Assembly (NCBI RefSeq): GCF_016806835.2
Contig: NZ_CP086114.1
Location: 1-64,000, forward strand
Source: Skermanella rosea
GTDB lineage: Bacteria > Pseudomonadota > Alphaproteobacteria > Azospirillales > Azospirillaceae
Direction of reading: 5' to 3'
Length of the DNA stretch: 64,000 nucleotides
Shown here: positions 30,641 to 51,204 of the stretch, piece after piece
Position numbering within the stretch: position 1 is the stretch's first letter
Layout of the letters: each line of letters begins with the position of its first letter
Notes under the pieces: model-generated
Database searches by the model: none
What the model saw: only the letters and a program-made list of their open reading frames with translations
What the model was told of the DNA's origin: nothing
Translations under genes and position numbers: made by a program

Positions 30641-30806
30641 TAGCGCGGTACCCGATCAGGTTGAACCGCTCCGGTCCTCGCAGCCGGCCGTTCCACTCGC
30701 CGCACTGTGTTGCGCCATGGGCGCAACCTACGGCTCGATGCAGGGCGGAGGTGATGCGGACCGACGGTCGTAGGTTGCGCCCATGGCGCAACGCGTCTGA
30801 TCGGCT
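30641..30806 (+). repeat. 166-bp hairpin repeat, copy 1
   Basis: This segment aligns without gaps to 37171-37336 (constant offset of 6530 bases) with only scattered mismatches. Inside it, 30709-30731 and 30770-30792 are exact 23-bp inverted copies (GTTGCGCC-ATG-GGCGCAACCTAC and its complement). Each arm is itself a small palindrome, so the RNA or single strand can fold into a long compound hairpin. There is no transposase; it resembles a REP/MITE-like non-autonomous element. Small ORFs predicted inside it are artefacts of the repeat. Confidence 0.8.
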
Positions 30807-31148: not shown

Positions 31149-32825
31149 ATGGCTCAGACTGTCTTGAGCGTTGTGCTTGAAGCGCAATCCAAAGGACTTT
31201 CTATTCTGCGGGATCTCATCGAGCAGCTCAAGTACCAGGAAGAGAACCCCCCGCCTCCCTTTACCGGTTCCTACGGCAGGCTGAGGAGCCTCGTCCCCAC
31301 GCTGCACTTCATGTCCATATCCGTCTTCGAGGACGACCATTTCGATCCCCTGCTGGTGATCGAGGCGAATTTCGACGGGCCGCAGGGACCCTTCTGGGCG
31401 CAACTGGAGGCGGCGATCGGGCCCCAGCTTCGCGAGATCCTCCGTTACTGCGAGCGGCCCGCGGGCCGGACCGGCGAGACCTTCGACCTGATCACCCGGC
31501 CGGGCTCGAAGCATCCGCTGGCACCGTTCCTGGAGGCGCACACCGTGACGCCTATGATCTTCCACCAGGGCAACCGGGGTCTCGACCGCCGCCGCATCGA
31601 CCGGGAGGCCGAGCTTTTCTTCGCGGCCCAGGAAACGCTGGGAAACGGCGCGCGGTACCACGGCGTCGATGCCGTCACCCTGCACCGGACCCTGCGGTCG
31701 TCCCTGCGCGGGACCTTCGACTGGCTGGGCGAACCGGAACCCGTCCGCATCCCCGGGCGCGAGCGCCTGGCCGATCTTGCAAAGCTGGCCGGGTTCGCCA
31801 TGGTGGCGCTTCTCGTGCTGTCCTTCCCGGGGGTGCTGCTGGCCCTGATCGTGCCGAACGGCTGGGTCGTGGTCAGCGTCTCGCTCCTCGCCGCCCTGGC
31901 CACCGGCCGCCTGATAAAGGACCTGCCCGACCTGTTCCGCCAATTCTCGGGGTCGGCGCCGGCGCCGGAATCGGGGCCACCGCCCCGGATGCGCGATGCC
32001 TTCGCCAGGGATGCCATGAAGTCGGCCGGATCCACGGTGGGCTTCGTCCGCCTCGCCCTGGCCGCCGCCCTGTTCCTGGCGGTTTACGTCGCCCTCGCGG
32101 CGACCGTCTTCGGCGCCCTCGTCGCTCCCCTGACCCCCGCCCCGTTCGGCGAAACCATCGCGGCCTCCGCACGGGTCTTCGCCCTGGGCCTGTCGAGCGT
32201 GCCCTTCTCGCTCTGCGCCATCCTGCTCTGGCTGCGCCGGCTGGAGGACCGCGACCCGTGCCATGACGATCCGGCGGTGCGGCCCGAACGCCTCCAGGAC
32301 ATGATGCGGCGGGAGGACTTCATCGCCCAGAACCACATGGGCAGCATGGTGCTGGTCAAGCCCGGCCTGCTGCGCGCCGTGCTGATCCGGGCCGGGCTGA
32401 GCGGCCTGGCGCTGATCCTCCGCGTCGTGGCCACCAGCGGCTATCTCGGCAGCATGCGTACCATCCATTTCGCCCACTGGGCCATGGTCGGCAACGGCAG
32501 CCGGCTGATGTTCTTCAGCAATTTCGACGGGAGCTGGGAAAGCTACCTCGACGACTTCATCGAGAAGGCCCATGGCGGCCTGACGCTCGCCTGGGGCAAC
32601 TGCGTCGGCTTTCCCCCCGCCCGCTTCCTGAGCCTGGAGGGCGCCACCCACGGCCGGAAGTTCAAGAACTGGGCCCGCCATTCCATGGCGACGACCCTGT
32701 TCTGGTTCAGCGCCTACCGCGACTACACCGTCAACCAGATCGAGCGCCATGCCCGCGTCGCCAGCGGCCTGCGGCAGCCGACGCTCTCGCCGGAGGAGGC
32801 CATCGCATGGACCAGGGACTTGTGA
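31149..32825 (+). CDS. Membrane protein of DyP peroxidase/P450 operon, unknown function
   Basis: 558 residues. A soluble N-terminal part (1-200) is followed by two hydrophobic stretches near residues 205-250 (LAGFAMVALLVLSFPGVLLALIV and the next), two more near 295-360, and a soluble C-terminal domain. The last part reads MRTIHFAHWAMV, then LMFFSNFDGSWESYLDDFIEKA and FSAYRDYTVNQIERHARVASGL. This C-terminal pattern is one I associate with proteins encoded next to DyP-type peroxidases. ATG at 31149 has GAGG 8 bases upstream. The end overlaps the start of the peroxidase gene by 19 bases, so they are co-translated. It may anchor the two heme enzymes at the membrane; this is inference. Confidence 0.75.
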   Translation: MAQTVLSVVLEAQSKGLSILRDLIEQLKYQEENPPPPFTGSYGRLRSLVPTLHFMSISVFEDDHFDPLLVIEANFDGPQGPFWAQLEAAIGPQLREILRYCERPAGRTGETFDLITRPGSKHPLAPFLEAHTVTPMIFHQGNRGLDRRRIDREAELFFAAQETLGNGARYHGVDAVTLHRTLRSSLRGTFDWLGEPEPVRIPGRERLADLAKLAGFAMVALLVLSFPGVLLALIVPNGWVVVSVSLLAALATGRLIKDLPDLFRQFSGSAPAPESGPPPRMRDAFARDAMKSAGSTVGFVRLALAAALFLAVYVALAATVFGALVAPLTPAPFGETIAASARVFALGLSSVPFSLCAILLWLRRLEDRDPCHDDPAVRPERLQDMMRREDFIAQNHMGSMVLVKPGLLRAVLIRAGLSGLALILRVVATSGYLGSMRTIHFAHWAMVGNGSRLMFFSNFDGSWESYLDDFIEKAHGGLTLAWGNCVGFPPARFLSLEGATHGRKFKNWARHSMATTLFWFSAYRDYTVNQIERHARVASGLRQPTLSPEEAIAWTRDL

Positions 32826-34309
32826 TCCCGGAAGATACCCGCGACGCCACGAAGTGGGGTCTCTCGCCGCGGCAGCTCGGCCGCATCCAGGGGCTGGTGG
32901 TCAGCGGCTTCGGGCACCTGCCCGTGACACGGGCGCTGTTCCTGAAGCTGGACCGGCCGGGCGGCGGCTGGCTCAAGGCGCTGGAGAAGGTGGCGCCGAT
33001 CACGCCCGCCACCGGCCGGCTGAACCGGTCGACCGCCATCGCGTTCACCTGCGCCGGCCTCAAGCGGCTCGGGTTTTCCGACACGGCGGACATCCCGGCC
33101 TTCGCCCTGCCCTTCCGGGAAGGCATGCACCAGCCGGACCGGCGCCGGCGGCTGGGCGACGAGGAGAAGAACGGCACCGTCATCCCCGGCGGCCCGCTCT
33201 GGAGCGGCGATCCCGCCGCCACGCCGCAGACGGTCCATGTCCTTCTCCTCCTCTACGCGGCGGACGAGGCCGACCTGGCCGACTGGTGCGCCCAGGTCAT
33301 GGCGACGCTCGAACCGGCGGGCGTATCGCTGGTGCGGCATCTGGACCTGTCCCTGCGGCTGGACCCCGACGGACGGGCGCGGGAGCATTTCGGCTTCGCC
33401 GACGGCTTCTCCCAGCCGGTCCCCTATCTGGCCGGTCCCGATTCCGCCGACCCCGGCGGCGGGCACGCCGCCCGCGACCCGTGGCACGGCGTGCCGATGG
33501 GCGAGGTCCTGATGAGCTATACCAACGCCCATGACGAGGCCGCCCCGGCCCCGATCGTTCAGCGGCCGGCCGATATCGCGGCGAAGCACCCGGACCTCAA
33601 GCCCGGCGGCGCGCCCGAGGGCTTCCTCGACCTGGGTGCCGACGGCTCCTACCTGGTCGTGCGCGAACTCCGCCAGGAGGTCGCCGCCTTCTGGAACTCG
33701 CTGGACGTCGCGGCCCGGACCCTGGGCTGCCCCGGCATCGACGCGGACTGGCTGGCCGACCGGATCGTCGGGCGCGAGCATGACGGCGACCTGCTGTGCC
33801 CGGCCGGCGCGCACAAGACGGTGAACGGACAGCCGGCCAACGCCGTCGGGTTCTTCCGGGAGGATTTCCACGGCCTCGGCTGCCCGCTCGGCTCCCACGT
33901 CCGGCGGGCCAACCCGCGGGACGGCCTGGCCGCGACGGAAGCGGACCGGAGTGCCCTGTTCAATGCGGCCAACAACCACCGCATCCTGCGCCGCGGCCGG
34001 AAATACGGCGAGACCATCGCGAACCGGCTGGAGGACGACGGCAAGGAGCGCGGCCTGCTGTTCATGTGCCTGAACACGGACATCGTCCGGCAGTTCGAGT
34101 TCATCCAGCAGACCTGGCTGCTCAACCGGAACTTCGCGGGCCTCTACGGCGAGACCGACCCGCTGCTCGGCCCCAAGGGTCCGTTCACGATCCCCAAGGA
34201 CCCCCTGCGCCTGAAGGTCGAGGTCGAGACCTACGTGAAGATGGTCGGCGGCGACTATTTCTTCCTGCCCAGCCTTCCCGCCCTCAAGTTCATGGCGGAC
34301 CTGACATGA
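32807..34309 (+). CDS. DyP-type heme peroxidase
   Basis: 500 residues, no signal peptide. It carries the DyP hallmark GxxDG as FGFADGFSQP near residue 195, whose Asp is the distal acid. GSHVRRANPRD near 363 contains the distal Arg, and NNHRILRRGRKYGE near 388 has the probable proximal His. LLFMCLNTDIVRQFEFIQQTW near the C-terminus is also conserved. The length is that of the larger DyP classes. It uses H2O2 or organic hydroperoxides to oxidise an unknown substrate in the cytoplasm or at the membrane. Its stop overlaps the P450 start as ATGA, implying coupled translation and probably joint function. Confidence 0.93.
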   Translation: MDQGLVIPEDTRDATKWGLSPRQLGRIQGLVVSGFGHLPVTRALFLKLDRPGGGWLKALEKVAPITPATGRLNRSTAIAFTCAGLKRLGFSDTADIPAFALPFREGMHQPDRRRRLGDEEKNGTVIPGGPLWSGDPAATPQTVHVLLLLYAADEADLADWCAQVMATLEPAGVSLVRHLDLSLRLDPDGRAREHFGFADGFSQPVPYLAGPDSADPGGGHAARDPWHGVPMGEVLMSYTNAHDEAAPAPIVQRPADIAAKHPDLKPGGAPEGFLDLGADGSYLVVRELRQEVAAFWNSLDVAARTLGCPGIDADWLADRIVGREHDGDLLCPAGAHKTVNGQPANAVGFFREDFHGLGCPLGSHVRRANPRDGLAATEADRSALFNAANNHRILRRGRKYGETIANRLEDDGKERGLLFMCLNTDIVRQFEFIQQTWLLNRNFAGLYGETDPLLGPKGPFTIPKDPLRLKVEVETYVKMVGGDYFFLPSLPALKFMADLT

Positions 34310-35556
34310 CCGCGGAACAGGTCTTGCGGCCCCTGCCCGACGGCCTCGGGACGCGGCTGCGGGCATGGGCCTTCGAGCATGTCGATCTCGCCTTCGGGCT
34401 GCTGCGCGCGGTGAAGCCGATCCTCAAGGTCGGCGGCACCGTCCTGGTCACCCGCTATGACGACGTGCGGGAGGTCTTCCTGACGGACGACGCCTTCCCC
34501 GTGCCTTACCGGGCCAAGCTCGACGTCATCATGGGCGGATGCCCGTTCTTCCTCGGCATGGCGGACACGCCGGAATACCGGCGCGACACCGCCGCGATGC
34601 GCAAGGCCATCCTGCGGGAGGACATCCCGGTGCGGCTGGCCGGCGCGGTCGAGACGCTGGCCGAGAGGATCGTGGACGAGGGCGGCGGCCGGCTGGAGGT
34701 CGTGGACGAGCTGGTGCGGCGGGTCACCTTCGCGGTGCTGTCGGATTATTTCGGCGTGCCCGATCCGCCGGGCGCGGACCTGCGGGTCTGGGCGACGCGA
34801 CTGTTCGAATTCCAGTTCGCCGACCCCGGCGACGACCCGGCGCTCCGCGCCGACGTGGACCGGATGGCCCCGGCGCTCCGCGACCATATCGACCGCCTGA
34901 TCGCCGCCCGCCGCGGATCGAACACCACCGGCAGCGACTTCGAGGGCGACGACGTGCTCGGCCGCTGCCTGGCCCTGCAGCGCCAGGGCGAGCCGGGCTT
35001 CTCCGACGAGCAGATCCGCACCGCGCTGATGGGCATGATCGTCGGCGGGCCGCCTCAGCCGCCCATGGTGGTGCCGCAGGCGCTGGAGCAGCTCCTGCGC
35101 CGCCCCGACGCCCTGATGGGAGCGCAGGCGGCGGCCCGGTCGGGCGACGACGCCCTCCTCGCCGGCTACGTGTTCGAGGCGATGCGCTTCGACCCGCTCG
35201 CCCCCGCCCTGCCCCGGGTCGCCGCGCGCGACCACCGCATCGCCGTCGGGACCCCGCGCGAAACGCTGGTTCCCAAGGGCGCCACCGTGCTGGCGGCGTT
35301 CCGCTCCGCGATGCACGACGGGCGCCGGATCCCCGACCCCGGGCGGTTCGATCCGCGCCGGATGCAGCACGAATACATCCATTTCGGCCACGGCCTGCAC
35401 ACCTGCTTCGGCATCCACATGAACCGGGTGCTCCTGCCCCTGATGCTGAAGCCGCTGCTCCGGCGGAACCGGCTGAGGCGCGCGCCGGGACCCGAAGGGC
35501 ACCTGACCAAGCGCGGCCCCTTCGCCGAACGGCTCCGGGTGGTCTACGATGCGTGA
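34306..35556 (+). CDS. Cytochrome P450 with atypical I-helix
   Basis: 416 residues, soluble bacterial type. The heme loop FGHGLHTCFG contains the thiolate Cys at residue 367, and the K-helix ExxR is EAMR near 295. The I-helix, where (A/G)Gx(D/E)T normally stands, reads VGGPPQPP at residues 246-253 (bases 35041-35064). The acid and threonine used for O2 activation are absent. This loss is known in peroxygenase P450s (CYP152) and hydroperoxide isomerases (CYP74). No ferredoxin or reductase gene is nearby, and the partner gene encodes a peroxidase. A role in peroxide- or hydroperoxide-driven chemistry is therefore likely; the substrate is unknown. Start ATG overlaps the peroxidase stop. Confidence 0.92.
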   Translation: MTAEQVLRPLPDGLGTRLRAWAFEHVDLAFGLLRAVKPILKVGGTVLVTRYDDVREVFLTDDAFPVPYRAKLDVIMGGCPFFLGMADTPEYRRDTAAMRKAILREDIPVRLAGAVETLAERIVDEGGGRLEVVDELVRRVTFAVLSDYFGVPDPPGADLRVWATRLFEFQFADPGDDPALRADVDRMAPALRDHIDRLIAARRGSNTTGSDFEGDDVLGRCLALQRQGEPGFSDEQIRTALMGMIVGGPPQPPMVVPQALEQLLRRPDALMGAQAAARSGDDALLAGYVFEAMRFDPLAPALPRVAARDHRIAVGTPRETLVPKGATVLAAFRSAMHDGRRIPDPGRFDPRRMQHEYIHFGHGLHTCFGIHMNRVLLPLMLKPLLRRNRLRRAPGPEGHLTKRGPFAERLRVVYDA

Positions 35557-35691: not shown

Positions 35692-36168
35692 ATGCGCTTC
35701 CTGTGCGATGAGATGCTTCATGGGCTGGGCCGCTGGCTGCGCGGCGCCGGCTACGACACGGCGATCGCCGAGACCGGCGGGGCGGACGGAGCCCTGCTCG
35801 ACCTGGCGCTGTCCGAGGGCAGGAAACTGCTGACCCGCGACCGGGCGATCCTCCAGCGGCGGCGCGCCGCCGGCGTGGTCGTGCTGGTGCAGGGCGATAC
35901 CGTCCACGAACAGGCGCTCAACCTGGGGCAGAGGCTCGGGCTGGACTGGCTGGCCGATCCCCTGTCGCGCTGCATGGTCTGCAATACCGAGCTGGAACCG
36001 GCCCCGCCGACGCTGGCCGGCTTGGCGCCGGCCAACATCCGCGCATCCGGTCTGCCCATACGGCACTGTGCCGGCTGCGACCGGCTCTACTGGCCCGGCA
36101 GCCACGAACGCCGGATCCGCGCCACCTTGCGGGAGTTCGCCCGGGCGAGCGCCGCGGATGCGCCATAG
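35692..36168 (+). CDS. Mut7-C RNase-domain protein with zinc ribbon
   Basis: 158 residues. It opens MRFLCDEMLHGLGRWLRGAGYDT, the PIN-like Mut7-C (PF01927) start with acidic residues Asp and Glu, then KLLTRDRAIL. The C-terminal half has a zinc ribbon: CMVCNTELE near residue 104 and CAGCDRLYWPGSHERRI near 132. The family is predicted to cleave RNA, but bacterial members are little studied. ATG at 35692 is chosen by homology of the N-terminus; a GTG at 35665 has a better spaced AGG and would add 9 residues. It follows the P450 gene by 135 bases and may be separate from that operon. Confidence 0.85.
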   Translation: MRFLCDEMLHGLGRWLRGAGYDTAIAETGGADGALLDLALSEGRKLLTRDRAILQRRRAAGVVVLVQGDTVHEQALNLGQRLGLDWLADPLSRCMVCNTELEPAPPTLAGLAPANIRASGLPIRHCAGCDRLYWPGSHERRIRATLREFARASAADAP

Positions 36169-36249: not shown

Positions 36250-37173
36250 ATGAGCGTGCAGCAGCTCGCCGTCGTGACCGGCGGCTCCAGCGGCATCGGC
36301 CTCGAACTGTCCCGACAGTTCGCCCGCCATGGCCATGATCTCGTGATCGGCGGACAGGATACCGCGAAGCTCGAGGGTGCCGCCGCCCTGCTCCGCCGGG
36401 AAACCGGCCGGGAAATCGTCGCCGTGGCAGCGGACCTGTCCGATGCCGAGGGGGTGGAGCGGTTCCACCGCAGCGTCCGCGATCTGGGCCGCCCCGTGGA
36501 TGTATTCTGCGCCAATGCGGGCGTGGGCGTCGGGGGCGGCGACTTCAGCCGGACCGACCTGGACGCGGAGCTCAGGCTCATCGACCTCAATGTCCGCAGC
36601 CAGGTGCACCTGACCAAGCTGATCGTCCGGGACATGGTGGCGCGCGGCAGCGGCAGGATCCTCTTCACAGGATCGATCTCCGGCCTGATGCCGGGTCCGT
36701 TCGAAACCGTCTATTCCGCGTCGAAGATGTTCATCCGGTCCTTCGCCGAGGCCCTGCGGAACGAGCTGGCGCCCAAGGGGATCACCGTCACCGCCCTGAT
36801 GCCGGGCCCGACCGACACGGATTTCTTCGACCGCGCCGGCATGAAGGGCACGCCGGTGGGCGACGGCCCGAAGGACGATCCCGCCGAGGTCGCCCGCCAG
36901 GGCTTCGAGGCGCTGATGGCCGATCGCCATCACGTGATCTCCGCCGGCATCAAGACCAAGCTGCAGGGCGCCGCCACCAACCTGATGTCCGACCCGATGC
37001 TGGCCGGTGTCCACCGCAGGATGAGCGAGCCCAGGTCCGCGCGGTCGAACCAGGGGAACGGCTCCCTGGCGATGGTGGGAACCGGGCTGGCCCTCGCGGC
37101 GTTGGTCGCGGCTGCGGCGATCGGCAGTTCTGACCTTCGGGGTCACCGGGTCGGCCGGCGTTACCGGAGCTAG
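36250..37173 (+). CDS. Short-chain dehydrogenase/reductase
   Basis: 307 residues. Rossmann motif TGGSSGIG near residue 10, NAG in FCANAGVG near 92, catalytic Ser in GSISGL near 140 and YSASK near 153, and the PGPTDTDFF region after. The catalytic domain ends about residue 240. The last 30 residues contain a hydrophobic stretch (LAMVGTGLALAALVAAAAIG) and a basic tail. The stop codon TAG is the first triplet of repeat copy 2, so the present C-terminus may have been set by insertion of the repeat. Substrate unknown. Confidence 0.9.
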   Translation: MSVQQLAVVTGGSSGIGLELSRQFARHGHDLVIGGQDTAKLEGAAALLRRETGREIVAVAADLSDAEGVERFHRSVRDLGRPVDVFCANAGVGVGGGDFSRTDLDAELRLIDLNVRSQVHLTKLIVRDMVARGSGRILFTGSISGLMPGPFETVYSASKMFIRSFAEALRNELAPKGITVTALMPGPTDTDFFDRAGMKGTPVGDGPKDDPAEVARQGFEALMADRHHVISAGIKTKLQGAATNLMSDPMLAGVHRRMSEPRSARSNQGNGSLAMVGTGLALAALVAAAAIGSSDLRGHRVGRRYRS

Positions 37174-37336
37174 AGCGGTCCCCGATCAGGTTGAACCGCT
37201 CCGGTCCTCGCAGCCGGCCGTTCCACTCGCCGCACTGTGTTGCGCCATGGGCGCAACCTACGGCTCGATGCAGGGCGGAGGTGATGCGGACCGAAGGTCG
37301 TAGGTCGCACCCATGGCGCAATGCATCGGATCAGCT
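37171..37336 (+). repeat. 166-bp hairpin repeat, copy 2
   Basis: Gap-free match to 30641-30806. The left arm of the 23-bp inverted repeat is identical to copy 1, but the right arm has two changes (TAGGTCGCACCC instead of TAGGTTGCGCCC), so the hairpin is slightly decayed. An additional 7-bp stem (GAGCGGT at 37173-37179 with ACCGCTC at 37195-37201) lies at the left end. Copies 1 and 2 bracket the DyP-P450-Mut7C-SDR block in direct orientation. Confidence 0.8.
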
Positions 37337-37524
37337 GTCTCGGGCGGATCGACTCTTCCTGGTTGGTCCGGCTGGGAGGATCGCTGGGTGTCGGCGACCA
37401 TGAAGATTCACGAAGCGAAGACCATGGTCGGAGTGGTTCCGATACTGGCGCCGCAGGAAGCGCGACGGCCGGGACGGTTGCGGATGGCTCCGGACTTCCC
37501 GCCCGTGCCCGCCGTCCAGGAACA
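37337..37524. other. Gene-free spacer after repeat copy 2
   Basis: No convincing gene. It separates the plus-strand SDR gene from the end of a minus-strand membrane-protein gene. Short frames here lack binding sites and typical codon use. Confidence 0.4.
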
Positions 37525-38208
37525 TCACCGCGGCAGCAGCCGCCCCAGGCTGTCGGCCGCCGTCTTTGCGACATAGGCCATCCACAGGCTGATGCCGATG
37601 AACTTCGCGCCGTCCTCGATCAGGTAGACGACCGTATCGCTCTCCCACAGGCCCAAGGGCTGCATCAGGAACGGCGTGTCGCACAGGAAGCTCAGGGCGA
37701 AGAAGCTCCCGGCGGCGGCCACGAGGCGGAAATTGTTTCCGGCCAGCACCTTGAAAAAACCCAGGCCGAACGCCGCCGCGACGGCGATATAGCCGAGTTT
37801 GACGTACCGTTCCCGGATTCCGAGCCCGACCGGCACTATCTCCTCATGGAGCATGAAGGCATCGTCCAGCAGCAGCAGGGTCGTGAGCACCCCCGCCGCC
37901 AGCCAGAACCGCCGCATCTGGACGGTCTCGTGGAAGCGCGTCACGGCATGGGTCAGGAAGGCGATGCTGGCGGCGGCGGCCCAGCCGAACAGCCCCAGCA
38001 TGGAAACGACTCCCAGGAACGGATGGTATCCGAGGGTGTCGGCGGGATCGTTGAAAAGCTCGCGGTTTCCGAGAGATGTCTGGCCCATCACGGCCAGCAG
38101 AATCAAAAGGGGTCCGGCGACGGCGGAGATCACCCAGGCATTCACGGACCCGGAGGAGTGAGTTCTTTTTCTACCAAAGGTATTGTCGGCACTGGCCCTG
38201 ACCGTCAT
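37525..38208 (-). CDS. Multi-spanning membrane protein of unknown function
   Basis: 227 residues with about six hydrophobic helices: AWVISAVAGPLLILLAVMG, FLGVVSMLGLFGWAAAASIAFL, FWLAAGVLTTLLLLDDAFMLHEE, YIAVAAAFGLGFFKVLAG, LVAAAGSFFALSFLCD and the C-terminal ISLWMAYVA. Conserved-looking acidic and His residues cluster in LLLDDAFMLHEEIVP and in LIEDGAKFIGI, inside or next to helices, which could form a metal or substrate site. ATG at 38208 is chosen; a GTG at 38220 is in frame. No family assigned. Confidence 0.7.
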   Translation of the reverse strand: MTVRASADNTFGRKRTHSSGSVNAWVISAVAGPLLILLAVMGQTSLGNRELFNDPADTLGYHPFLGVVSMLGLFGWAAAASIAFLTHAVTRFHETVQMRRFWLAAGVLTTLLLLDDAFMLHEEIVPVGLGIRERYVKLGYIAVAAAFGLGFFKVLAGNNFRLVAAAGSFFALSFLCDTPFLMQPLGLWESDTVVYLIEDGAKFIGISLWMAYVAKTAADSLGRLLPR

Positions 38209-38525
38209 GACACCATCCACATTTCAATCAGGTGTCATTTCCATGACAGAATGACGAATACAAGGCACCCATATCCGCAATTAGGTCTATCCGCCGGTCT
38301 CATTCGGCGATGGGCCGACGCCCCTTCACATGCAGCCTCCATGCTGCTATATGGAACCTGGATCGACCTTTGAGCTGGGAGGACTGCATGACATCGACGT
38401 GCCTGCTTTTCGTTCCCGGCCCGGTCGTTCGATAGGTAGCGCGACCCGGTCGCCCGCTTCCCCTCCCGTTTCCGGGGTTTCACGTCCCATTTGATCCGTT
38501 GCCGCATCCCTCCCGCCCGGTGGGG
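38209..38525. promoter_or_regulatory. Divergent intergenic region
   Basis: This spacer lies between the minus-strand membrane-protein gene and the plus-strand ABC exporter gene. It is AT-richer around 38210-38290 and must hold promoters for both directions. No specific operator or RNA element was recognised. Confidence 0.35.
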
Positions 38526-40385
38526 ATGAAGCGCGATCCATTTCGGAGCCGGCGCGCCGACGCGCCGTTCGATTTCATGACTGTCGTTCGACGCACACGG
38601 CGGGCGGATGCCATGCGCACCGTCCTCGCCTTCACGTTCCGCCATTGGCGCCGTCAGTCCGCGCTCGTCGCCGGGGTCGCCTGCGCCATGGTCACGGCCA
38701 CGCTGGCCGACGTCTTCATGCCCTATTTCGCCGGGCGGCTGGTCGATGCCTTGATGCTGGTCTCCTCGGACCGCGAAGCCGCGCGCGACGCGGCCCTGGC
38801 GGCCTTCGGCGCCATGGCCGGCCTCGGCCTCGGCATGGTGGTGCTGCGCCATCTCGGCTGGAGCGGCATCATCCCGCTGACCCTGCGGATGATGGGCGAC
38901 ATCTCGCAGGACGCCTTCCACCGGGTCCAGCGATTCTCGACCGACTGGCACGCCAACAGCTTCGCGGGCGCCGTCGTGCGCAAGATCACGCGCGGCATGA
39001 ACGCGCTCGACACCCTCAACGACACCCTGCTGCTGGCGCTGCTGCCCTCGGTCACGGTCCTGCTCGGGACCATGCTGCTGATGGCCCTGCATTGGCCGGT
39101 GCTCGGGCTGGTCGTGGGTGGCGGCACGCTGGCCTACATCGCGCTGACCCTGTACCTGTCCACGTCCTACATCGCGCCCGTGGCGAAGCTGTCCAACGCG
39201 CTCGACACCCGGCTGGGCGGCATGCTGGCCGACGCGATCGGCTGCAATCCCGTCGTCAAGGCGTTCGGCGCCGAGGCGCGGGAGGACGAACGCCTCGCCC
39301 GCGTCATCGGGAAATGGCGGAACCGCACCTGGCACACCTGGACCCGGCATACCCGCAGCGGGACGACGCAGAACGCCGTGCTGCTGCTGATGCGGACCGC
39401 CGTCGTGGGAACGTCGCTCGTGCTGTGGTGGCATGGGCGGGCGACGCCCGGCGACGTGGCCTATGTGCTGACCACCTATTTCGTCGTCCACGGTTATCTG
39501 CGCGACATCGGCATGCACATCAACCATCTCCAGCGCTCGGTCAACGAGATGGAGGAACTGGTCCTGCTGCACGACGAGCCGCTGGGCATCGAGGACCGCC
39601 CCGACGCCCGGCCGATCCGCATCGGCGCCGGCGAGATCCGCTTCGACCATGCGGACTTCCACTACGGCGCCCACACCGTGCCGCTGTACAAGGACCTGTC
39701 GGTCACCATCCGGGCCGGCGAGCGCGTCGGGCTGGTCGGACCCTCGGGATCGGGCAAGACGACCTTCGTCAAGCTGATCCAGCGCCTCTACGACGTCACC
39801 GGCGGCCGGGTGCTGATCGACGGCCAGGACGTATCCAGGGCTACCCAGGCGTCGCTGCGGTCGCAGATCGCCATCGTCCCGCAGGAGCCGATCCTGCTCC
39901 ACCGCTCGCTGGCGGAGAACATCGCCTATGCCCGGCCGGGCGCCTCGATGGCGGAGATCGAGCAGGCGGCCCGCCTCGCCAACGCCCACGACTTCATCGC
40001 GCGGCTGCCCCGCGGCTACGCGACCATGGTCGGCGAGCGCGGCGTCAAGCTGTCGGGCGGCGAGCGCCAGCGCGTGGCGCTCGCCCGCGCCTTCCTGGCC
40101 GACGCGCCGATCCTGATCCTGGACGAGGCGACCTCCAGCCTGGATTCGGAATCCGAGGCCCTGATCCAGGAGGCGATGGAGCGGCTGATGCAGGGCCGCA
40201 CCGCCCTGGTCATCGCGCACCGCCTGTCCACGGTCAGGACCCTGGACCGCATCCTGGTGTTCAACCAGGGCCGCATCGTCGAGGAGGGAAGCCACAAGGC
40301 GCTGCTCCACCGGCCGGGCGGCCTCTACCGCCGGCTGTTCGAGCAGCAGTCGGCTCCGGACCGGGACCGCCGGTCGGCGGGGTGA
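38526..40385 (+). CDS. ABC exporter (membrane and ATPase domains fused, homodimeric type)
   Basis: 619 residues. Six membrane helices lie in residues about 35-320. The nucleotide-binding domain begins near 365: Walker A GPSGSGKT, Q-loop IVPQEPILLHRSLAENI, signature LSGGERQR, Walker B ILILDEATSSLD and the H-loop IAHRLSTV. This is the MsbA/multidrug-exporter half-transporter layout. It lacks the accessory genes (HlyD, TolC) and N-terminal features of an RTX type I exporter. ATG at 38526 is the first good start; later ATGs at 38577 and 38613 cannot be excluded. Substrate unknown. Confidence 0.93.
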   Translation: MKRDPFRSRRADAPFDFMTVVRRTRRADAMRTVLAFTFRHWRRQSALVAGVACAMVTATLADVFMPYFAGRLVDALMLVSSDREAARDAALAAFGAMAGLGLGMVVLRHLGWSGIIPLTLRMMGDISQDAFHRVQRFSTDWHANSFAGAVVRKITRGMNALDTLNDTLLLALLPSVTVLLGTMLLMALHWPVLGLVVGGGTLAYIALTLYLSTSYIAPVAKLSNALDTRLGGMLADAIGCNPVVKAFGAEAREDERLARVIGKWRNRTWHTWTRHTRSGTTQNAVLLLMRTAVVGTSLVLWWHGRATPGDVAYVLTTYFVVHGYLRDIGMHINHLQRSVNEMEELVLLHDEPLGIEDRPDARPIRIGAGEIRFDHADFHYGAHTVPLYKDLSVTIRAGERVGLVGPSGSGKTTFVKLIQRLYDVTGGRVLIDGQDVSRATQASLRSQIAIVPQEPILLHRSLAENIAYARPGASMAEIEQAARLANAHDFIARLPRGYATMVGERGVKLSGGERQRVALARAFLADAPILILDEATSSLDSESEALIQEAMERLMQGRTALVIAHRLSTVRTLDRILVFNQGRIVEEGSHKALLHRPGGLYRRLFEQQSAPDRDRRSAG

Positions 40386-40404
40386 TCCCGGCCCGGTCCC
40401 TCCC

Positions 40405-40623
40405 CTACCTGCCGAAGCCCTGGGGAGGGGTCATGTAGCCGACGAACACGGAGAGCAGCGTCGTGGCGGCGCTCGCCACCTCGGCGCTGATCGCCAGCTC
40501 GGGCTTCACGATGCTCAGGACGTAGATCGCGATCGTGACCAGCGCGCCCGCGACGGCGCTCGTCTGGATCTTGGGAACCGGCATCAGGGAAGGGGCCGCG
40601 TTCTGCGTCGCAACTCCGGTCAT
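40405..40623 (-). CDS. Small membrane protein (72 aa)
   Basis: AGGAGG lies 5-6 bases before the ATG at 40623, a very strong binding site. The protein has a short polar N-terminus, one clear membrane segment (AVAGALVTIAIYVLSIV) and a second, weaker helix (ASAATTLLSVFVGYMT), then PPQGFGR. The size and layout recall small holin-like proteins, but no lysis gene is nearby and the family is not certain. It converges on the ABC exporter gene with 19 bases between them. Confidence 0.7.
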   Translation of the reverse strand: MTGVATQNAAPSLMPVPKIQTSAVAGALVTIAIYVLSIVKPELAISAEVASAATTLLSVFVGYMTPPQGFGR

Positions 40624-40755
40624 GCAGTCCTCCTGTCGGATTGAAGCCGCGCCGGGAATGGCGCGGCTTCCCTTCTCTACCCGAAGGCACCGCAACCGGC
40701 AGTGAACAACTTCACACCCTATCGAGACTACCTTGAATTGCCGGCCGTCCCGGGT

Positions 40756-41691
40756 TCAGGCCGCCAGGAACGCATCATGGTGGTGATGGTGCCCGTCCTG
40801 GACCCCGATCAGGGTGATGGGTGCCGGGTCCGCCGCCGGGATCGCCGAGCCGGCCGGGTCGTCGGACGAGGCCGACATTCCGGCGACCTGGGCGGCGATG
40901 CCGGGCGGATCGATCAGGTCGATCTTCACGTTCTTGCTGCCCACGGTCACCGTCTTCGTGACCGGAGCGGCCAGGCCGCCCTCGGAGAAGGTCAGCCTGT
41001 AGGTGCCGGGAGCCACCGCGATGTCGTACCCGCCGGCGGTGCCGGTGATGTCGGCGACAGTCACGGGAGTGGTCGTGCCGGTCGAGACCGCGGTCACCTT
41101 GATGCCGCCGCGGCCTTCGCCGGGCGTGTAGAAGTCGTTGTCGTTGCGGTCGTCATAGGCGACGCCGGTGATGAAGGACGCGGTGCCGGTCCTGGCGAAG
41201 TCCTGGGTCACCATGGACGCGTTGTACGCCCCGAACTTGCCGAACTCGACGCCTACGCCGATCTCCTTGAAGTTGTCGTTCAGGATGTTGAGCCGGTGCC
41301 CGGGGCTCTTGAACAGCGACTCGTGGCGCGCCAGGGTGTGGGCCAGCTGGTTGATGGTCCCGGTGCTTCCGCCCCAGGAGATGTTCTCGCCCGCGGTCCA
41401 GCTGCCGGAGAAAACGTAGCCCTCGGCCTTCATGCGGGTCGTGAAGCTGGAGCCGCCGGCCCCCGTATGGGAGAAGGTGTCGGTGTCCAGCATCCACTTG
41501 GAATGCTTGTGCGCCGCATCGACGATGTCGCCGTCGAAGGCCAGCGGCTGCTTGGGCGCCGTGGAGATCCGGCCCGAGCTCAAGCCCTGGTCAAGGGATA
41601 TCCCGAGCCGGGATGCCTCCGCCGAAGGATTGGCCCGGGCCTGGTTGATCAACTCCAGCATATATTGGTCGAAGGCCGTAGGTTCCGGCAT
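40756..41691 (-). CDS. CAP/SCP-domain protein with carboxy-terminal beta domain and His-rich tail
   Basis: 311 residues. Residues 1-150 form a CAP domain: LELINQARANPSAEA, HSKWMLDTDTFSHTGAGG, AGENISWGG, and SPGHRLNILNDNFKEIGVGV with the CAP His and Glu residues. A second domain (about 160-260) resembles a Cna-B/SdrD-like beta module (GVAYDDRNDNDFYTPGEGRGGIKVTAV). The end is GVQDGHHHHHDAFLAA. There is no N-terminal signal peptide, although such proteins normally act outside the cell. The acidic-then-hydrophobic C-terminus suits type I secretion, as in the two RTX proteins here. AAGGAA lies 5-6 bases before the ATG at 41691. Confidence 0.85.
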   Translation of the reverse strand: MPEPTAFDQYMLELINQARANPSAEASRLGISLDQGLSSGRISTAPKQPLAFDGDIVDAAHKHSKWMLDTDTFSHTGAGGSSFTTRMKAEGYVFSGSWTAGENISWGGSTGTINQLAHTLARHESLFKSPGHRLNILNDNFKEIGVGVEFGKFGAYNASMVTQDFARTGTASFITGVAYDDRNDNDFYTPGEGRGGIKVTAVSTGTTTPVTVADITGTAGGYDIAVAPGTYRLTFSEGGLAAPVTKTVTVGSKNVKIDLIDPPGIAAQVAGMSASSDDPAGSAIPAADPAPITLIGVQDGHHHHHDAFLAA

Positions 41692-41952
41692 GATCATTCC
41701 TTATCAAGACTGACATCGCGCGAGAACTACTACTTCCGATAGCTTTAATAAATCAAGTCGCGGCCCAGGGACAATTATAAGTGCGGGAATGGACAAAAAG
41801 CAGGCATGTCGGTCGATCACCCCCGGGGCCGGGGTACGTCGATCCTGGAAATGCCTTCCCGGACCTGATGCAGGTTAATGACGGAAGGCCGTCGGCGCGC
41901 GACGATGGATCCGCAAGAGCGGGAAAAGTCCATCGTTCCGGGAGGCTTCACC

Positions 41953-42405
41953 ATGCACAGGCACGCCATCATCTGGTTCGTCCTCGTCGACGGGGCCAAG
42001 ACCCGCATCCTGCGGTGCCGATCCTCCGATCCCGACGGGATCGAGGTCGTTCTCGAGGAGGACTCCCGCGAGGCGGAGCTGCGCGCCCATGACCTCGTCA
42101 CCGACCGGCCCGGGCGCAGTTACGAGAGCGCCTCGCCGCTCCGCCACGCGGTCGGCGGGCCGGATCCGCACGAAGCGGCGATGGAGCGCTTCGAGGCGGG
42201 CGTGGCCGACATCATCGACCGGGCGGCTTCCCAGGACCGCTTCGACGGGCTGGTGCTGGTGGCGCCGCCGCGCGTGCTGGGCCGGATGCGCCAGGCACTG
42301 GGCGCCCGTGCCAGGGAACGGCTGATCCTGGAGGAAGGCAAGGATCTCCTGGGCTTGCCCGACGCGGAACTGAAGTCCCGCCTGTCGGCCCTGGTGGCCC
42401 CGTGA
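41953..42405 (+). CDS. Host attachment protein family (AtsE/PF10116-type)
   Basis: 150 residues. The order of motifs matches the Host_attach family: IWFVLVDGAKTRILR, HDLVTDRPGRSYESAS followed by RHAVGGPDPHE, FDGLVLVAPPRVLGRMRQALG and EEGKDLLGLPDAEL. The name derives from Agrobacterium mutants; the fold resembles nucleic acid release factor-like domains and the real activity is unknown. GGAGG lies 7 bases before the ATG at 41953. The stop shares a base with the start of the following cytochrome gene (TGATG). Confidence 0.87.
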   Translation: MHRHAIIWFVLVDGAKTRILRCRSSDPDGIEVVLEEDSREAELRAHDLVTDRPGRSYESASPLRHAVGGPDPHEAAMERFEAGVADIIDRAASQDRFDGLVLVAPPRVLGRMRQALGARARERLILEEGKDLLGLPDAELKSRLSALVAP

Positions 42406-42734
42406 TGCAGCGCCTCCCCTTGGTCGTGGCCACGGTGCTGGCGGCTTTCACCATCCAGGCCGCCGGCGCCCAGACGGTCGGCAGCCAGGTCCGCGGCCGG
42501 GAACGGGCGGACCAGCTCTGCGGTGACTGCCATGTCGTGGCCCCGGGCCGCGAAGGCTCCCGGTCGCTGGGTCCGAACCTCGTCGAGTATGTCCGCGATC
42601 CGGCCATCACCGAAATGGCCCTGCGGAGCTATCTCCAGACCTCGCACCCGGTCATGCCCAACGTGATGCTGGACCGGAACGATACCGACGACATCGTGGC
42701 CTATCTGCTCGCCCAGAAGGAGCCTCGGAAGTGA
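42405..42734 (+). CDS. Small class I c-type cytochrome
   Basis: 109 residues. Signal peptide (LPLVVATVLAAFTIQAAGAQT), heme site CGDCH near residue 39, and a distal Met candidate in HPVMPNVML near residue 83, as in mono-heme periplasmic electron carriers. It starts at the stop of the host attachment gene (TGATG), so it is translationally coupled to it. It converges on the FNR-type regulator gene. Confidence 0.9.
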   Translation: MQRLPLVVATVLAAFTIQAAGAQTVGSQVRGRERADQLCGDCHVVAPGREGSRSLGPNLVEYVRDPAITEMALRSYLQTSHPVMPNVMLDRNDTDDIVAYLLAQKEPRK

Positions 42735-42758
42735 CCCGGACCGCTGCTGCCCGGATCT

Positions 42759-43523
42759 CTACTGCAAGGCCGCCAGCCCTCCCCGCCCTGCCCGGCGGGG
42801 CGGCGGCGCCTCGTCCTCGATGCCGGCCAGCGCGATCAGGCGCGAGCGGTCGAGCACGTGCAGGTGCTGCCGGGCGAAGGTCAGCAGCCCGGCTTCGCGC
42901 ATCTCCTTCAGGGTGCGGCAGACATGGACGGGCGTCAGGCCCGTGGCGTCGGCGATCTGGATCTGGCTGATCGGCAGGACGGCGTCGGTGTCCGGCGGCA
43001 GTGCCTGCCGCGCCCCGGCGCGGTGCTGGCGGTCGCCGAGTTCCAGCAGCAGCCGGGCGATCCGTTCGGCGGCGGTGCAGCACCCGAGCCCGCCCAGCAG
43101 GCGCCAGTCCGAGATCGTCTCGCCCGCCAGCAGGGAGGCCATGCGGAGAGCTACGGCGGGAGCCCTCTCGCAGAACCCCAGGAGCTGCCGGCGGGGCAGC
43201 GAGCACACCGTCAGGTCGGTCAGCGCCTCGACCGTGCAGGGCATCGTTCCGTCGGGCGCGGTCTCGAACCCGATCAGGCCGCCCGGCAGGACGAACCGCA
43301 GGATCTGCCGGCGCCCGCTCTCGCGCACCGTGGAGGTGACCGCCCAGCCCGCGCGCACGATGTAGACGGCGTCGTTCCGCTCGTGCTCGGTGCAGATGTA
43401 GCTTCCCGATGGATGGCGCCGGACCGGTCGTTTCAGGGCTCCGAACTCCGACAACTGCTCGTCCGACATGCTTGCGCACAGACCTTCCCGGCGCACCGGG
43501 CATGTTTGGCATTCCGTCCGCAT
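42759..43523 (-). CDS. Crp/Fnr regulator with four-cysteine FNR-type sensor
   Basis: 254 residues. The N-terminus has Cys5-x2-Cys8-x7-Cys16, and Cys107 (LTDLTVCSLPRRQLL) aligns with the fourth cluster ligand of E. coli FNR, so an oxygen-labile [4Fe-4S] cluster is likely. The cNMP-fold occupies residues about 25-140 and the winged helix about 160-235. The recognition helix reads LTPVHVCRTLKEM, where FNR has the LTVETISRLLGRF pattern: the Glu and Ser that read TTGAT are Val and Cys here, while the Arg is kept. DNA specificity may therefore differ from FNR. It is downstream of a small gene with a 21-base gap, behind an FNR-like box. Confidence 0.9.
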   Translation of the reverse strand: MRTECQTCPVRREGLCASMSDEQLSEFGALKRPVRRHPSGSYICTEHERNDAVYIVRAGWAVTSTVRESGRRQILRFVLPGGLIGFETAPDGTMPCTVEALTDLTVCSLPRRQLLGFCERAPAVALRMASLLAGETISDWRLLGGLGCCTAAERIARLLLELGDRQHRAGARQALPPDTDAVLPISQIQIADATGLTPVHVCRTLKEMREAGLLTFARQHLHVLDRSRLIALAGIEDEAPPPRRAGRGGLAALQ

Positions 43524-43544
43524 GGTTGACCTCGTCAGTCGTTT

Positions 43545-43973
43545 TCAGTGCCGCGAGGGCCGGGATCCCGACGGCGGATTTTCCTGGAGCAACCGGGACT
43601 GGATGACGATGTCGATGAACGCCGAGACGACCACGTGATTGCCGTCCGGACCGTCGGGCGCCTCCCGGGCCGCCGCGAAATGACCGTTGAGCCGGCACGC
43701 GACCGCCAGCTTGGCGGCAATCCCCAGCACGCTGCGTGCCGGCATGGATGCCAAGGACCGCAGCAGATCGCGCCGCAGCGTCTCGCCCGCCGGGGCGGAC
43801 GCCTCGCCCTGCCCCTCCCGTCCCGGCGGCACCCATCCGGCCCCGCGGAAATGCTCGTGCAGGATCAGCAGGTCGTGGTCGCAATGCCGGCCGCTGGCCA
43901 GGGCCTCCAGGATGGCCCCCTGAAGTTCGGCCTGCAGGAAATCCTGGTCGTTCGCGCCTTCCCCTGACGGCAT
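43545..43973 (-). CDS. Hypothetical protein co-transcribed with the FNR-type regulator
   Basis: 142 residues, mostly helical, cytoplasmic, with no known domain. It contains a His/Cys-rich patch (SGRHCDHDLLILHEHF, residues about 28-43) that might bind a metal. ATG at 43973 is chosen because GGGAGG lies 5-6 bases before it. This start also puts the FNR-like box 71 bases upstream, whereas the longer frame to 44057 would place the box on top of the start codon. It ends 21 bases before the regulator gene. Confidence 0.65.
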   Translation of the reverse strand: MPSGEGANDQDFLQAELQGAILEALASGRHCDHDLLILHEHFRGAGWVPPGREGQGEASAPAGETLRRDLLRSLASMPARSVLGIAAKLAVACRLNGHFAAAREAPDGPDGNHVVVSAFIDIVIQSRLLQENPPSGSRPSRH

Positions 43974-44043
43974 GGCCGCCTCCCATAGCGGCGGTTCCCC
44001 CCCTCGCAATACGGGAATATTACCTGCAATGTCCGGCGATTTG

Positions 44044-44057
44044 TTGATCCAGATCAT
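44044..44057. promoter_or_regulatory. FNR/FixK-like box
   Basis: TTGAT-CCAG-ATCAT matches the FNR/Anr/FixK consensus TTGAT-N4-ATCAA at 9 of 10 fixed positions. It is 71 bases before the start codon of the small gene that precedes the FNR-type regulator, so a centre near -41.5 of a promoter is feasible. The operon is thus probably oxygen-controlled, by this regulator or another family member. Confidence 0.6.
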
Positions 44058-44214
44058 CCCGGGCGGCCGGTAGCCTTAATCGCCTGCCTGCCACGGAAGA
44101 AAAGATAGTTGTGGAGGGCGGTAGTCCGACGCTCCTGATCGTAGTGTATGCCCTGTTTTGGCGACCGCCGTTATGGTGATGAACGGTACCCGGATCCGGC
44201 TGCTGCTGCGGCAC

Positions 44215-44343
44215 TGAACCGCGTCGGGATTTCCGGAGGCCGATTTGGTTGAGTCACGCCGCCCTGGAGATGTCCTCGGTTTGAGCATAGTAGCGTGCTT
44301 CGGCCTCGGCGGGCGGAATGTTGCCGATGGGTTCGAGCAGGCG
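44215..44343 (-). mobile_element. IS3-family remnant (transposase OrfB tail and terminal repeat)
   Basis: The minus strand encodes LLEPIGNIPPAEAEARYYAQ and a further nine residues ending SRAA, then stop at 44254. This is the standard C-terminus of IS3-family OrfB. Beyond the stop lies the element end, whose outermost bases read TGAACCGCGTCGGGATTTCC from 44215 on the plus strand, the typical IS3-type inverted repeat. The rest of the transposase is missing because IS5-like DNA begins at 44344. Confidence 0.75.
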
Positions 44344-44715
44344 CTACTTTGTTGCAGCGAGGTAATTTCAGTCGCAGGAACCCCTTTCACAGGGTCCGGA
44401 TTACGCAACGCGGACGGAGTCCGGGCGCCCGAGGTCGAGCATGCGGTTGAGAACAGTGACGGTGATGCGGGTTTCGGTCTGCTGGGTCAGCCGGCTATGG
44501 GAACGCAAGGTGCCGCCGATGATCCGCTGGTATAGACGCATCGTTCCCTCGGCACCGGCCCTCGCATTGTAGCCGGAAATTCGCTGCCAGCCCTTCCGGC
44601 CCTGCTCGGCAATGACCTGGATATGGCAGCCGCGCTGGGTTGGATCAGTTTCGGCCGATGGACTGAGCACGGCCGTCGAGCGCGGCGGCACGACAACCGC
44701 AGCATCCGTGCACCA
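44344..44715 (-). mobile_element. IS5-family remnant (3' part of transposase and one end)
   Basis: A frame ending TAA at 44401 encodes VVVPPRSTAVLS, then CHIQVIAEQGRKGWQRISGYN, ARAGAEGTMRLYQRIIGG and TVLNRMLDLGRPDSVRVA. This is the C-terminal third of an IS5-family DDE transposase, including the catalytic Glu region. The left end, from 44344, reads TACTTTGTTGCAGCGAGG, resembling the GGCTTTGTTGCA ends of that family. The N-terminal two thirds and the other end are absent. It joins the IS3 remnant, so it inserted into that element before both decayed. Confidence 0.75.
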
Positions 44716-44782
44716 AACCATCTTCCTCCTCCGTACGACAAGCTGTCTCGTCCATTCGGCGCCAGAAGTGGTCTTCCAGCGG

Positions 44783-46366: not shown

Positions 46367-46586
46367 TTCGGCGCTCAGCTGGCTGGTAGTCCGGAAGGTC
46401 AGGCAGCCACCGCCGGGCCAGCTCCCATAAGCCGGGCAGTGCCGGGATAGCGGCCCATTTGGACAATCTTTGAAGCTGAACTCAATGGAAATTCAAGGAG
46501 ACCGCAAGGTCTTCCGGTCAGTTTCCAGGCATTCTCCGCTCATCGGTCGCCACGGACGTGGTCGATATGAAATGGAGGAGCGAAGC

Positions 46587-47342
46587 ATGAAGATCGTCGT
46601 TATCGGAGGCAGCGGCCTTATCGGGACCAAGCTTGTCGGCAGGCTTCGTCAGAGTGGACACGAGGTCGTGGCGGCGTCCCCCAGTTCCGGCGTCGATACC
46701 ATCACCGGCGAGGGGTTGTCTGAGGCGCTTGCCGGCGCTCGGGTGGTCGTCGATGTCGCGAACTCGCCGTCGTTCGAGGACAGGAAGGTCCTGGAATTCT
46801 TCGAGACCTCCGGCCGCAACCTTCTCGCCGCGGAACAGGCGGCAGGCGTGGGGCATCACGTGGCACTGTCTGTCGTCGGCACCGATCGCCTTCCCGAAAA
46901 CGGTTACTTCCGCGCCAAGGTCGCCCAGGAGAACCTGATCAAGGCATCCGGAATTCCCTATACGATCCTCCGCTCTACGCAGTTCTTCGAGTTCATCGGC
47001 GGCATCATCGAGGCTGGCGCCGACGGCGATGTCATCCGCCTGTCGCCCGCCCTCGTGCAGCCCATCGCGTCGGATGACGTCGCCGCCACGCTGGCCGATC
47101 TTGCGGCAGCACCTCCGGTGAACGGCACCGTCGAAGTGGCCGGTCCGGAGCCGATCGCCCTCGACAAGCTGGCTGGAGAGGTCATGGCCGCGAATGGGGA
47201 CGGCCGCCGGGTGGTCGCAGACATCCACGCGCGCTACTTCGGCTCGGTGCTGAACGACCAGTCGCTGACGCCGGGCCAAGACCCGCGCACCGGACCGACG
47301 AGGTTCGAGGAGTGGCACGCCAGCTCATCGGCGCGGAAATAG
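46587..47342 (+). CDS. NmrA/SDR-like NAD(P)-binding protein
   Basis: 251 residues of the atypical SDR/NmrA group. Nucleotide-binding GGSGLIG near residue 8, then VVDVANSPSFED, a VALSVVGTDRLPENGYFRAKVAQENLIKASGIPYTILRSTQFFEF stretch typical of NmrA/YtfG-type quinone or NAD(P) oxidoreductases, and IASDDVAATLADL. ATG at 46587 has GGAGGAG 7-8 bases upstream. First of three plus-strand genes divergent from the wHTH-TPR regulator. Confidence 0.9.
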   Translation: MKIVVIGGSGLIGTKLVGRLRQSGHEVVAASPSSGVDTITGEGLSEALAGARVVVDVANSPSFEDRKVLEFFETSGRNLLAAEQAAGVGHHVALSVVGTDRLPENGYFRAKVAQENLIKASGIPYTILRSTQFFEFIGGIIEAGADGDVIRLSPALVQPIASDDVAATLADLAAAPPVNGTVEVAGPEPIALDKLAGEVMAANGDGRRVVADIHARYFGSVLNDQSLTPGQDPRTGPTRFEEWHASSSARK

Positions 47343-47436
47343 GCCGACACGGAGACAGGTCAGAGCGGCGCACGCAAGCCTGAAATGGCGCGGTGTGTAT
47401 CGCGGCGCCTCGATCCCGAAGCGAAAGGATGAAATC

Positions 47437-47877: not shown

Positions 47878-47921
47878 GATCCTCAACTCAAGCACTCGAC
47901 CCAAGCAACCGGAGAACGACC

Positions 47922-48914: not shown

Positions 48915-49054
48915 CGGCTTCGGTGCAGCGAGCACAGTGTAGGCGGAGTGGGCCTATCCGCTCTGATCGGTTACATGGTGCGGACGAACTCCGGGCGTGA
49001 TCATGATCTATACCTGCGGCAATCTTGTCCCCACCAAAATTTTGCAACAGAACC

Positions 49055-49126: not shown

Positions 49127-49164
49127 CGTTCCAAGAATGGGATGCAGGCCGCCACGGGCCAGGT

Positions 49165-51182: not shown

Positions 51183-51204
51183 GACTTCGGGACAGGACCC
51201 GGGC

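Follow-up and report, generated by a model that had tools for sequence, protein, structure and literature searches.

A conserved, naturally fused bacterial module comprising a DyP-type peroxidase, an unusual cytochrome P450 and a twin ferredoxin-like-domain membrane protein

The 64,000-nucleotide stretch of Skermanella rosea DNA analyzed here (hereafter, the window) is the first part of a contig of 328,999 bases in a genome of 7.76 Mb. It contains an operon of three genes, all on the plus strand, that encode a twin ferredoxin-like-domain membrane protein (denoted MP; 558 amino acids; 31149..32825, delineated from the open reading frame and an AlphaFold2 model), a DyP-type heme peroxidase (500 amino acids; 32807..34309), and a cytochrome P450 (416 amino acids; 34306..35556). 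That MP, DyP and P450 form a conserved, naturally fused module is strongly supported by the gene neighborhoods described below. Because these proteins, with an unusual P450 among them, are kept together and sometimes fused in many bacteria, the module suggests an uncharacterized peroxide-handling enzyme machine, perhaps one for lipid peroxides, a task for which fungi and corals use different enzymes. In the reading that we favor, with a probability of about one half, the three genes encode a single unit of peroxide-dependent heme enzymes that is held together by MP and probably acts on lipid hydroperoxides.

Conservation, linkage, and fusion of the three genes

The DyP gene starts 19 bases inside the MP gene, and the DyP and P450 genes overlap at an ATGA, as the original prediction for this locus had stated. 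Both overlaps are kept in relatives: where MP and DyP are separate genes, 41/46 loci have a DyP-frame start codon at the 19-base position, and where DyP and P450 are separate, 37/39 loci have ATGA or GTGA where the DyP gene ends (in L052, one of the two exceptions, the P450 gene is placed upstream). The same three genes, with unchanged order and lengths, are present on the Skermanella mucosa plasmid pSM-3 (307,911 bases), where they are annotated as hypothetical, hypothetical, and cytochrome P450, respectively; therefore, the window contig is probably a plasmid as well.

A scan of genome contigs with the C-terminal domain of MP identified 338 confirmed places, of which the best 80 were fetched. 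These loci are not independent because they were chosen by likeness to the window MP and many come from Sphingomonas or Mesorhizobium. Among them, MP is accompanied by DyP in 77/80 and by P450 in 67/80, so that the predicted association of the MP C-terminal domain with DyP neighbors holds. Separate genes in the order MP-DyP-P450 account for 38/80 loci, and a single reading frame P450-MP-DyP of 1,385-1,456 residues for 25/80; one triple fusion, cut at its contig end, has 1,180 residues (L118). The P450 gene lies upstream of a fused MP-DyP in 3/80 and of an unfused MP-DyP pair in 1/80. MP and DyP alone are found in 7/80, and a fused MP-DyP alone, at the score used for these counts, in 3/80, including L123 with its weak P450 match. 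The three loci without DyP are L082 and L098, where the contig ends just after or inside MP, and L084, which has a broken MP. Another triple fusion P450-MP-DyP is SARO_RS19865 of Novosphingobium aromaticivorans. The L123 protein (4923-10241) is a 1,772-residue fusion with a P450 part that matches Pfam over ~58 residues and is perhaps decayed or very divergent.

Linkage was also evident in less biased draws. MP matches were found in 15/398 Pseudomonadota genomes, and the 14 loci examined (our own and 13 fetched), some of them closely related to one another or also present in the set of 80, included DyP in all 14, P450 in 10 (that of L050 is very divergent and below the Pfam cut-off), a catalase-related gene in 3, and neither in 1. 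A second draw, with MP matches in 6/369 genomes of another class, one of them already present in the first, gave DyP in 6, P450 in 2, a catalase-related gene in 3, and neither in 1. Together, the 19 loci comprise DyP in 19/19, P450 in 12, the catalase-related gene in 5, and neither in 2. In the reverse direction, a P450 profile drew 8/385 class genomes at E<=1e-70, with MP and DyP adjoining in 6; the other two (L163 and L164) lack MP and DyP in the 14-16 kb fetched.

The conserved order, overlap, and fusion rule out a chance operon, and the neighborhood is conserved, as the original prediction had required of the proposed joint system: linkage of the three families extends across Pseudomonadota, in hosts that include Mesorhizobium, Rhizobium, Sphingomonas, Methylobacterium, and roseobacters. 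Two contigs filed as Candidatus Kuenenia (L128) and Citrobacter (L081) carry loci close to those of Alphaproteobacteria, and contamination or mis-binning is possible. In the annotated records examined, the module genes go under the names hypothetical protein, cytochrome P450, or Dyp-type peroxidase. We found no description of a DyP-P450 fusion or operon in the parts seen of the open-access literature (subscription papers and preprints were outside the scope); the words fusion, fused, peroxidase, and motif are absent from a survey of alphaproteobacterial P450s (PMC8197338), and DyP is not mentioned in the examined part of PMC11719350.

The two heme enzymes, the partner swap, and the MP scaffold

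The window P450 matches the Pfam family PF00067 above the cut-off (E=1e-12) and retains the two superfamily signatures, EAMR (ExxR) and the heme-thiolate motif FGHGLHTCFG (FxxGxxxCxG), in which Cys367 is encoded at 35404..35406 by alignment. Its I-helix, GMIVGGPPQPPMVV, reads GGPPQPP (35044..35064; alignment and AlphaFold2 model) in place of the AGxDT-type motif, so that Pro-Gln (Pro250 and Gln251) occupies the positions of the acid-Thr pair of P450cam, numbered Asp251-Thr252 in the part of PMC5818669 consulted. The acid-Thr pair of an O2-activating monooxygenase is accordingly missing while the heme Cys is intact, in agreement with the prediction that this P450 is unusual with respect to O2 activation. 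The AlphaFold2 model (predicted local distance difference test score, pLDDT, 91.8) has a confident P450 fold with the I-helix broken at residues 248-251, and the nearest solved relatives, by sequence and by Foldseek, are bacterial P450s. In the S. mucosa copy, for which the gene table describes itself as incomplete, the 8 kb on either side of MP contain no annotated ferredoxin or ferredoxin reductase gene; to that extent, the predicted lack of an electron-transfer partner nearby stands. An SDR oxidoreductase gene lies downstream of the module in that copy.

Among the aligned P450 rows, near-duplicates included, 81/82 have residues at the I-helix site. The acid position is occupied by Pro in 75, Ala in 1, and Asp or Glu in 5 of these, and the next position by Gln in 42, Thr in 38, and Val in 1. 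Four close relatives with neither MP nor DyP in their fetched DNA (L017, L018, L163, and L164) have Glu-Thr-Thr in 4/4; L017, whose 8.5 kb contig carries no module, is the fifth acid-keeping row, the other four being considered below. In this alignment, loss of the acid accompanies the module and is not universal. The P450 tree requires two acid changes, counted with an arbitrary root and with one outgroup row scored as lost by the alignment.

The place of the P450 can be taken by a different heme protein. In five loci (L045, L046, L047, L139, and L140), the gene after DyP encodes a catalase-related protein instead of a P450. A single such protein had no match in the PDB, and a profile of four matched the coral allene oxide synthase 1u5u (E=7.7e-9), the longer form of the coral allene oxide synthase-lipoxygenase, and 3e4w, which we take to be a Mycobacterium catalase-related protein. 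R367 and Y371 are invariant across the A3 set of this component; the RxxxY motif that they form presumably has the heme-ligand role known in catalase-related proteins. In L047, DyP is fused to the catalase-related domain in a 900-residue frame. In L140, a 1,047-residue An_peroxidase gene with a 4-base overlap with a second catalase-related gene lies upstream of MP-DyP-catalase-related, all on one strand; the best PDB match of its product is a fatty acid alpha-oxidase (E=9e-59). In L047, a related protein of 1,008 residues is encoded beside, and divergently from, the module (An_peroxidase matches of both neighbors, E ~1e-68). Overall, An_peroxidase matches occur in 11/25 module-bearing genomes and adjoin the module only in these two loci, the nearest others being ~15 and ~50 kb off. 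The window genome has no catalase-related match, and its sole An_peroxidase match (E<=1e-10) sits on another contig. Pseudomonas fluorescens FW300-N2E3 also encodes a catalase-related protein, which adds little to the association because the gene is distant from the MP-DyP locus of that genome (L089). There (L168, 5777-8759), it follows a gene for a RoxA-like diheme cytochrome c; the oleate diol synthases of P. aeruginosa are members of the diheme cytochrome c peroxidase family (PMC5155153, in the part consulted).

The window DyP, predicted as a heme peroxidase, matches PF20628 (the DyP C-terminal domain) above the cut-off and has DyP relatives in the PDB (best E=8e-33); its match to NCBIfam TIGR01413 (E=5.5e-25) scores 88.4 bits, below the cut-off of 100.5. 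Asp199 of GxxDG (33401..33403) and Arg366 of GSHVRRANPRD (33902..33904), the latter being presumably catalytic, are conserved in 94/94 aligned rows, and His391 of NNHRILRRG (33977..33979), which we take to be the heme ligand, in 93/94. The Arg pair is likewise kept in 94/94. Judged by these residues, the module DyP appears intact.

MP belongs to no Pfam or NCBIfam family above the cut-off. Its AlphaFold2 model (pLDDT 89.3; predicted template modeling score 0.87) consists of two ferredoxin-like domains, at ~residues 1-145 (31149..31583) and ~388-530 (32310..32738), that flank a helical membrane segment at ~203-368 (31755..32252); the C-terminal domain, defined by alignment and the model, is the marker of the system and was the query of the contig scan. 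The fold is clear in the modeled secondary structure of both domains, and the HF..S and E..DG residues of the two run parallel; the profile of the C-terminal domain also matches the N-terminal half of MP in L046, L047, L049, and L139. Direct comparison of the domains by hhalign, with cut-outs of our own, gave a weak match (probability 2%, E=0.024). ABM-type alpha-beta barrel proteins, such as 2omo and WhiE-ORFI (9lmn), may share the ferredoxin-like fold of both domains, with weak Foldseek matches (E 0.16-0.18; at least 0.16 for ABM entries); unlike them, MP carries a membrane segment between its domains and has no sequence family.

The description of MP as a membrane protein holds for the window, where hydropathy identifies four stretches in the membrane segment, with a weaker fifth falling within the C-terminal domain, and needs refinement for the family. 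Among 77 relatives, hydrophobic stretches number four in 33, two in 20, three in 12, five in 9, one in 2, and eight in 1. The C-terminal domain profile is matched by both members of a pair of small genes in L141 and in L162, and by one member of such a pair in L142; the products of these small genes have zero or one hydrophobic stretch. Thus, the conserved part of MP is the pair of ferredoxin-like domains, and the membrane segment is variable and missing in some relatives. In L142, genes for a multicopper oxidase (2303-3916) and a pyridoxal phosphate-dependent decarboxylase (3998-5305) lie upstream of the small MP-domain genes, DyP, and P450.

Regulators and other neighboring genes

The triple fusions are accompanied by a TPR protein in 23/25 loci and by a CRP-like regulator in 23/25; the profiles behind these counts were built in part from those loci. 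Outside the fusions, the TPR protein reaches >100 bits in none of the 55 remaining loci. Examples are L100 (4056-5795 and 10064-10783), L041-L043, L051, and most of L101-L130. A Guanylate_cyc domain is part of the TPR protein in L100 and L129 and not in L044 and L048, and the N. aromaticivorans protein is annotated as a SARP regulator. A dedicated signaling pair of the fusions is possible. The window encodes distant relatives of both, a Trans_reg_C-TPR protein (44783-46366, minus strand), ~9 kb from the P450 gene, and a CRP-like regulator (42759-43523, minus strand). We considered this pair as dedicated to the module and take it as unlinked: it lies 7-11 kb downstream, and no gene in the S. 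mucosa stretch 37000-56000 is described like the Trans_reg_C-TPR one, with a Crp/Fnr gene present there.

All-against-all comparison of the open reading frames of 36 loci and the window was used to identify conserved neighbors. Apart from the three genes and antisense frames, clusters of at least three loci belong to the fusions or to the catalase-related or divergent types. The exception touching the separate-gene form is a three-locus cluster (L045, L078, and L096), the L045 member of which is a GMC oxidoreductase. The gene at 35694-36168, directly downstream of the window P450 gene, has an S. mucosa counterpart annotated as a Mut7-C RNAse domain protein, and a pair resembling an inverted repeat, spotted by eye around GTTGCGCCATGGGCGCAACC, lies at 30710-30800 between an NCS1 symporter gene and the module.

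Possible chemistry and relationship to known systems

The proposed mechanism is as follows. The MP scaffold, usually with a membrane segment, would bring DyP beside a second heme enzyme, namely, the P450 in most loci and the catalase-related protein in some. The P450 is probably outside the usual O2/NAD(P)H cycle because it has lost the proton-delivering acid, lacks an adjacent dedicated redox partner, and is fused in numerous species to a peroxidase rather than to a reductase. A peroxide would drive it instead, either as a peroxygenase or as an isomerase or lyase of an organic hydroperoxide, and DyP would make, consume, or further oxidize the same peroxide or its product. The two heme enzymes could thus share an organic, possibly lipid, hydroperoxide, with no NAD(P)H involved. 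Peroxide-driven chemistry appears likely and a lipid substrate plausible; the order of the steps is conjectural. The substrate is probably a lipid hydroperoxide, given that fatty-acid dioxygenases or lipoxygenases are known to have P450s as well as catalase-related proteins as partners and that a fatty-acid alpha-dioxygenase-like gene adjoins the module in two relatives. The choice between a P450 and a catalase-related partner, common to the known systems and the module, is the strongest hint at function.

Several observations weigh against this reading. Four module P450s (L016, L116, L122, and L128) keep Asp with Thr-Thr, so that acid loss is not required for module membership. The window P450 lacks the Arg of the CYP152 family and resembles ordinary bacterial P450s in both sequence and fold. 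The alpha-dioxygenase-like neighbors are confined to two loci, both of the catalase-related type, and none of the genes flanking the S. mucosa operon copy carries a lipid-related annotation. In the DyP of one module locus (L021), Arg stands where the heme-ligand His is expected. Among nine genomes with a P450-less fetched MP-DyP locus, eight encode no close P450 at E<=1e-40, and seven, several of which are metagenome bins and may be incomplete, encode neither a close P450 nor a catalase-related protein; one (Roseicella; I-helix motif MPQ) encodes the P450 elsewhere, and another encodes the catalase-related protein elsewhere. Thus, MP-DyP may work by itself or together with another partner. Finally, we know of no DyP that makes fatty acid hydroperoxides.

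The alternative that fares best, which we consider possible and rather doubtful, is that the P450 is an H2O2-driven peroxygenase of a small aromatic or xenobiotic compound and DyP a parallel peroxidase of the same substrate or a guard against surplus H2O2, with no lipids involved. Both heme types can use H2O2, the P450 has lost its acid, a GMC oxidoreductase, of a family able to make H2O2, is encoded upstream of MP in L045, and the S. mucosa plasmid comes from a crude-oil-contaminated desert. This scenario leaves the swap for an allene oxide synthase-like protein and the alpha-dioxygenase-like neighbors unexplained, and, given that the fatty-acid-binding Arg of CYP152 is absent, H2O2 activation would also lack an explanation.

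It appears improbable that the P450 is an ordinary O2 monooxygenase, fed by a general ferredoxin and tolerating Pro-Gln, with DyP acting downstream in the same biosynthetic pathway. Bacterial P450s often borrow redox partners, the nearest folds of the window P450 include many proteins named as monooxygenases, and the Asp-Thr kept in four module rows is compatible with such a role; the change of the acid, in contrast, is near universal and patterned (75/81), and the fusions scanned for domains (L100, L138, and L123) match P450 and DyP and no reductase. A non-catalytic helper, similar to the P450-derived glycosyltransferase activators of TIGR04515, the top NCBIfam match of the window P450 (E=1.5e-13, 50.9 bits vs the cut-off of 343), would fit the broken I-helix of the model and is very improbable given the heme Cys and ExxR, each in 81/82 rows (the row lacking the Cys, L097, is cut by its contig).

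To our knowledge, the natural roles of bacterial DyPs are poorly known. If the preferred reading of a peroxide-dependent unit held by MP is correct, a group of these enzymes gains a defined partner and pathway, and the P450s become a further peroxide-driven family of possible use in catalysis. Furthermore, a P450 and a catalase-related enzyme in the same place beside one peroxidase would represent a natural experiment in the evolution of two-heme oxidation systems. A more specific version, tentative and in our view unlikely, is a bacterial oxylipin-type synthase derived from the DyP superfamily, in which a membrane-held DyP would make or channel a lipid hydroperoxide to be rearranged by an O2-independent P450 or catalase-related enzyme.

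The components of the module resemble those of several known systems. The DyPs near Alr1585 (5c2i) and 8re3, both among the best PDB sequence matches of the window DyP, share its GxxDG, Arg, and His motifs; unlike them, the module DyP has MP, and in most cases a second heme enzyme too, as its neighbor or fusion partner. In the CYP152 peroxygenases (BSbeta, SPalpha, and OleT), Arg-Pro replaces the acid-alcohol pair (PMC5818669, in the part consulted). The module P450 is similar in that the pair is replaced with a Pro included and there is no dedicated redox partner; unlike CYP152, it lacks the carboxylate-binding Arg and is linked to DyP and MP. With Pro-Gln instead of Arg-Pro, membership in CYP152 is rejected, and CYP152 is not named among the best 60 PDB sequence matches or the best 50 fold matches listed, many of which have generic names.

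Catalase-related heme proteins with a partner are found in the coral allene oxide synthase-lipoxygenase (AOS-LOX) fusions and in Nostoc, where 10S-dioxygenase (10S-DOX) pairs with a catalase-related hydroperoxide lyase (PMC13049297, in the part consulted). This is the family that replaces the P450 in five loci; the coral and Nostoc partner is a lipoxygenase or an An_peroxidase-type dioxygenase and not DyP, and the window itself has the P450. Like the fungal linoleate dioxygenase-P450 fusions (Ppo/LDS; DOX-CYP), the fused module joins a domain of the heme peroxidase type to a heme-thiolate P450 within a single polypeptide. The P450s of the fungal DOX-P450 fusions are self-sufficient as far as known, and their distal heme-side residues in substrate recognition site 4 (SRS4) depart from the usual proton relay (PMC13049297), as in the module P450. 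The peroxidase domain of Ppo/LDS is N-terminal, belongs to the peroxidase-cyclooxygenase superfamily (PMC4420034, in the part consulted), and comes without MP, whereas the peroxidase of the module is DyP, C-terminal in the fusions, and joined through MP. The analogy to Ppo made in the original prediction thus gains from the P450/catalase-related swap and the two alpha-dioxygenase-like neighbors; membership in the Ppo family itself is rejected because DyP belongs to a superfamily other than that of An_peroxidase. If the oxylipin-type version is correct, the DyP module would be an independently evolved pairing beside COX-PGIS/TXS, fungal DOX-P450, and LOX-cAOS.

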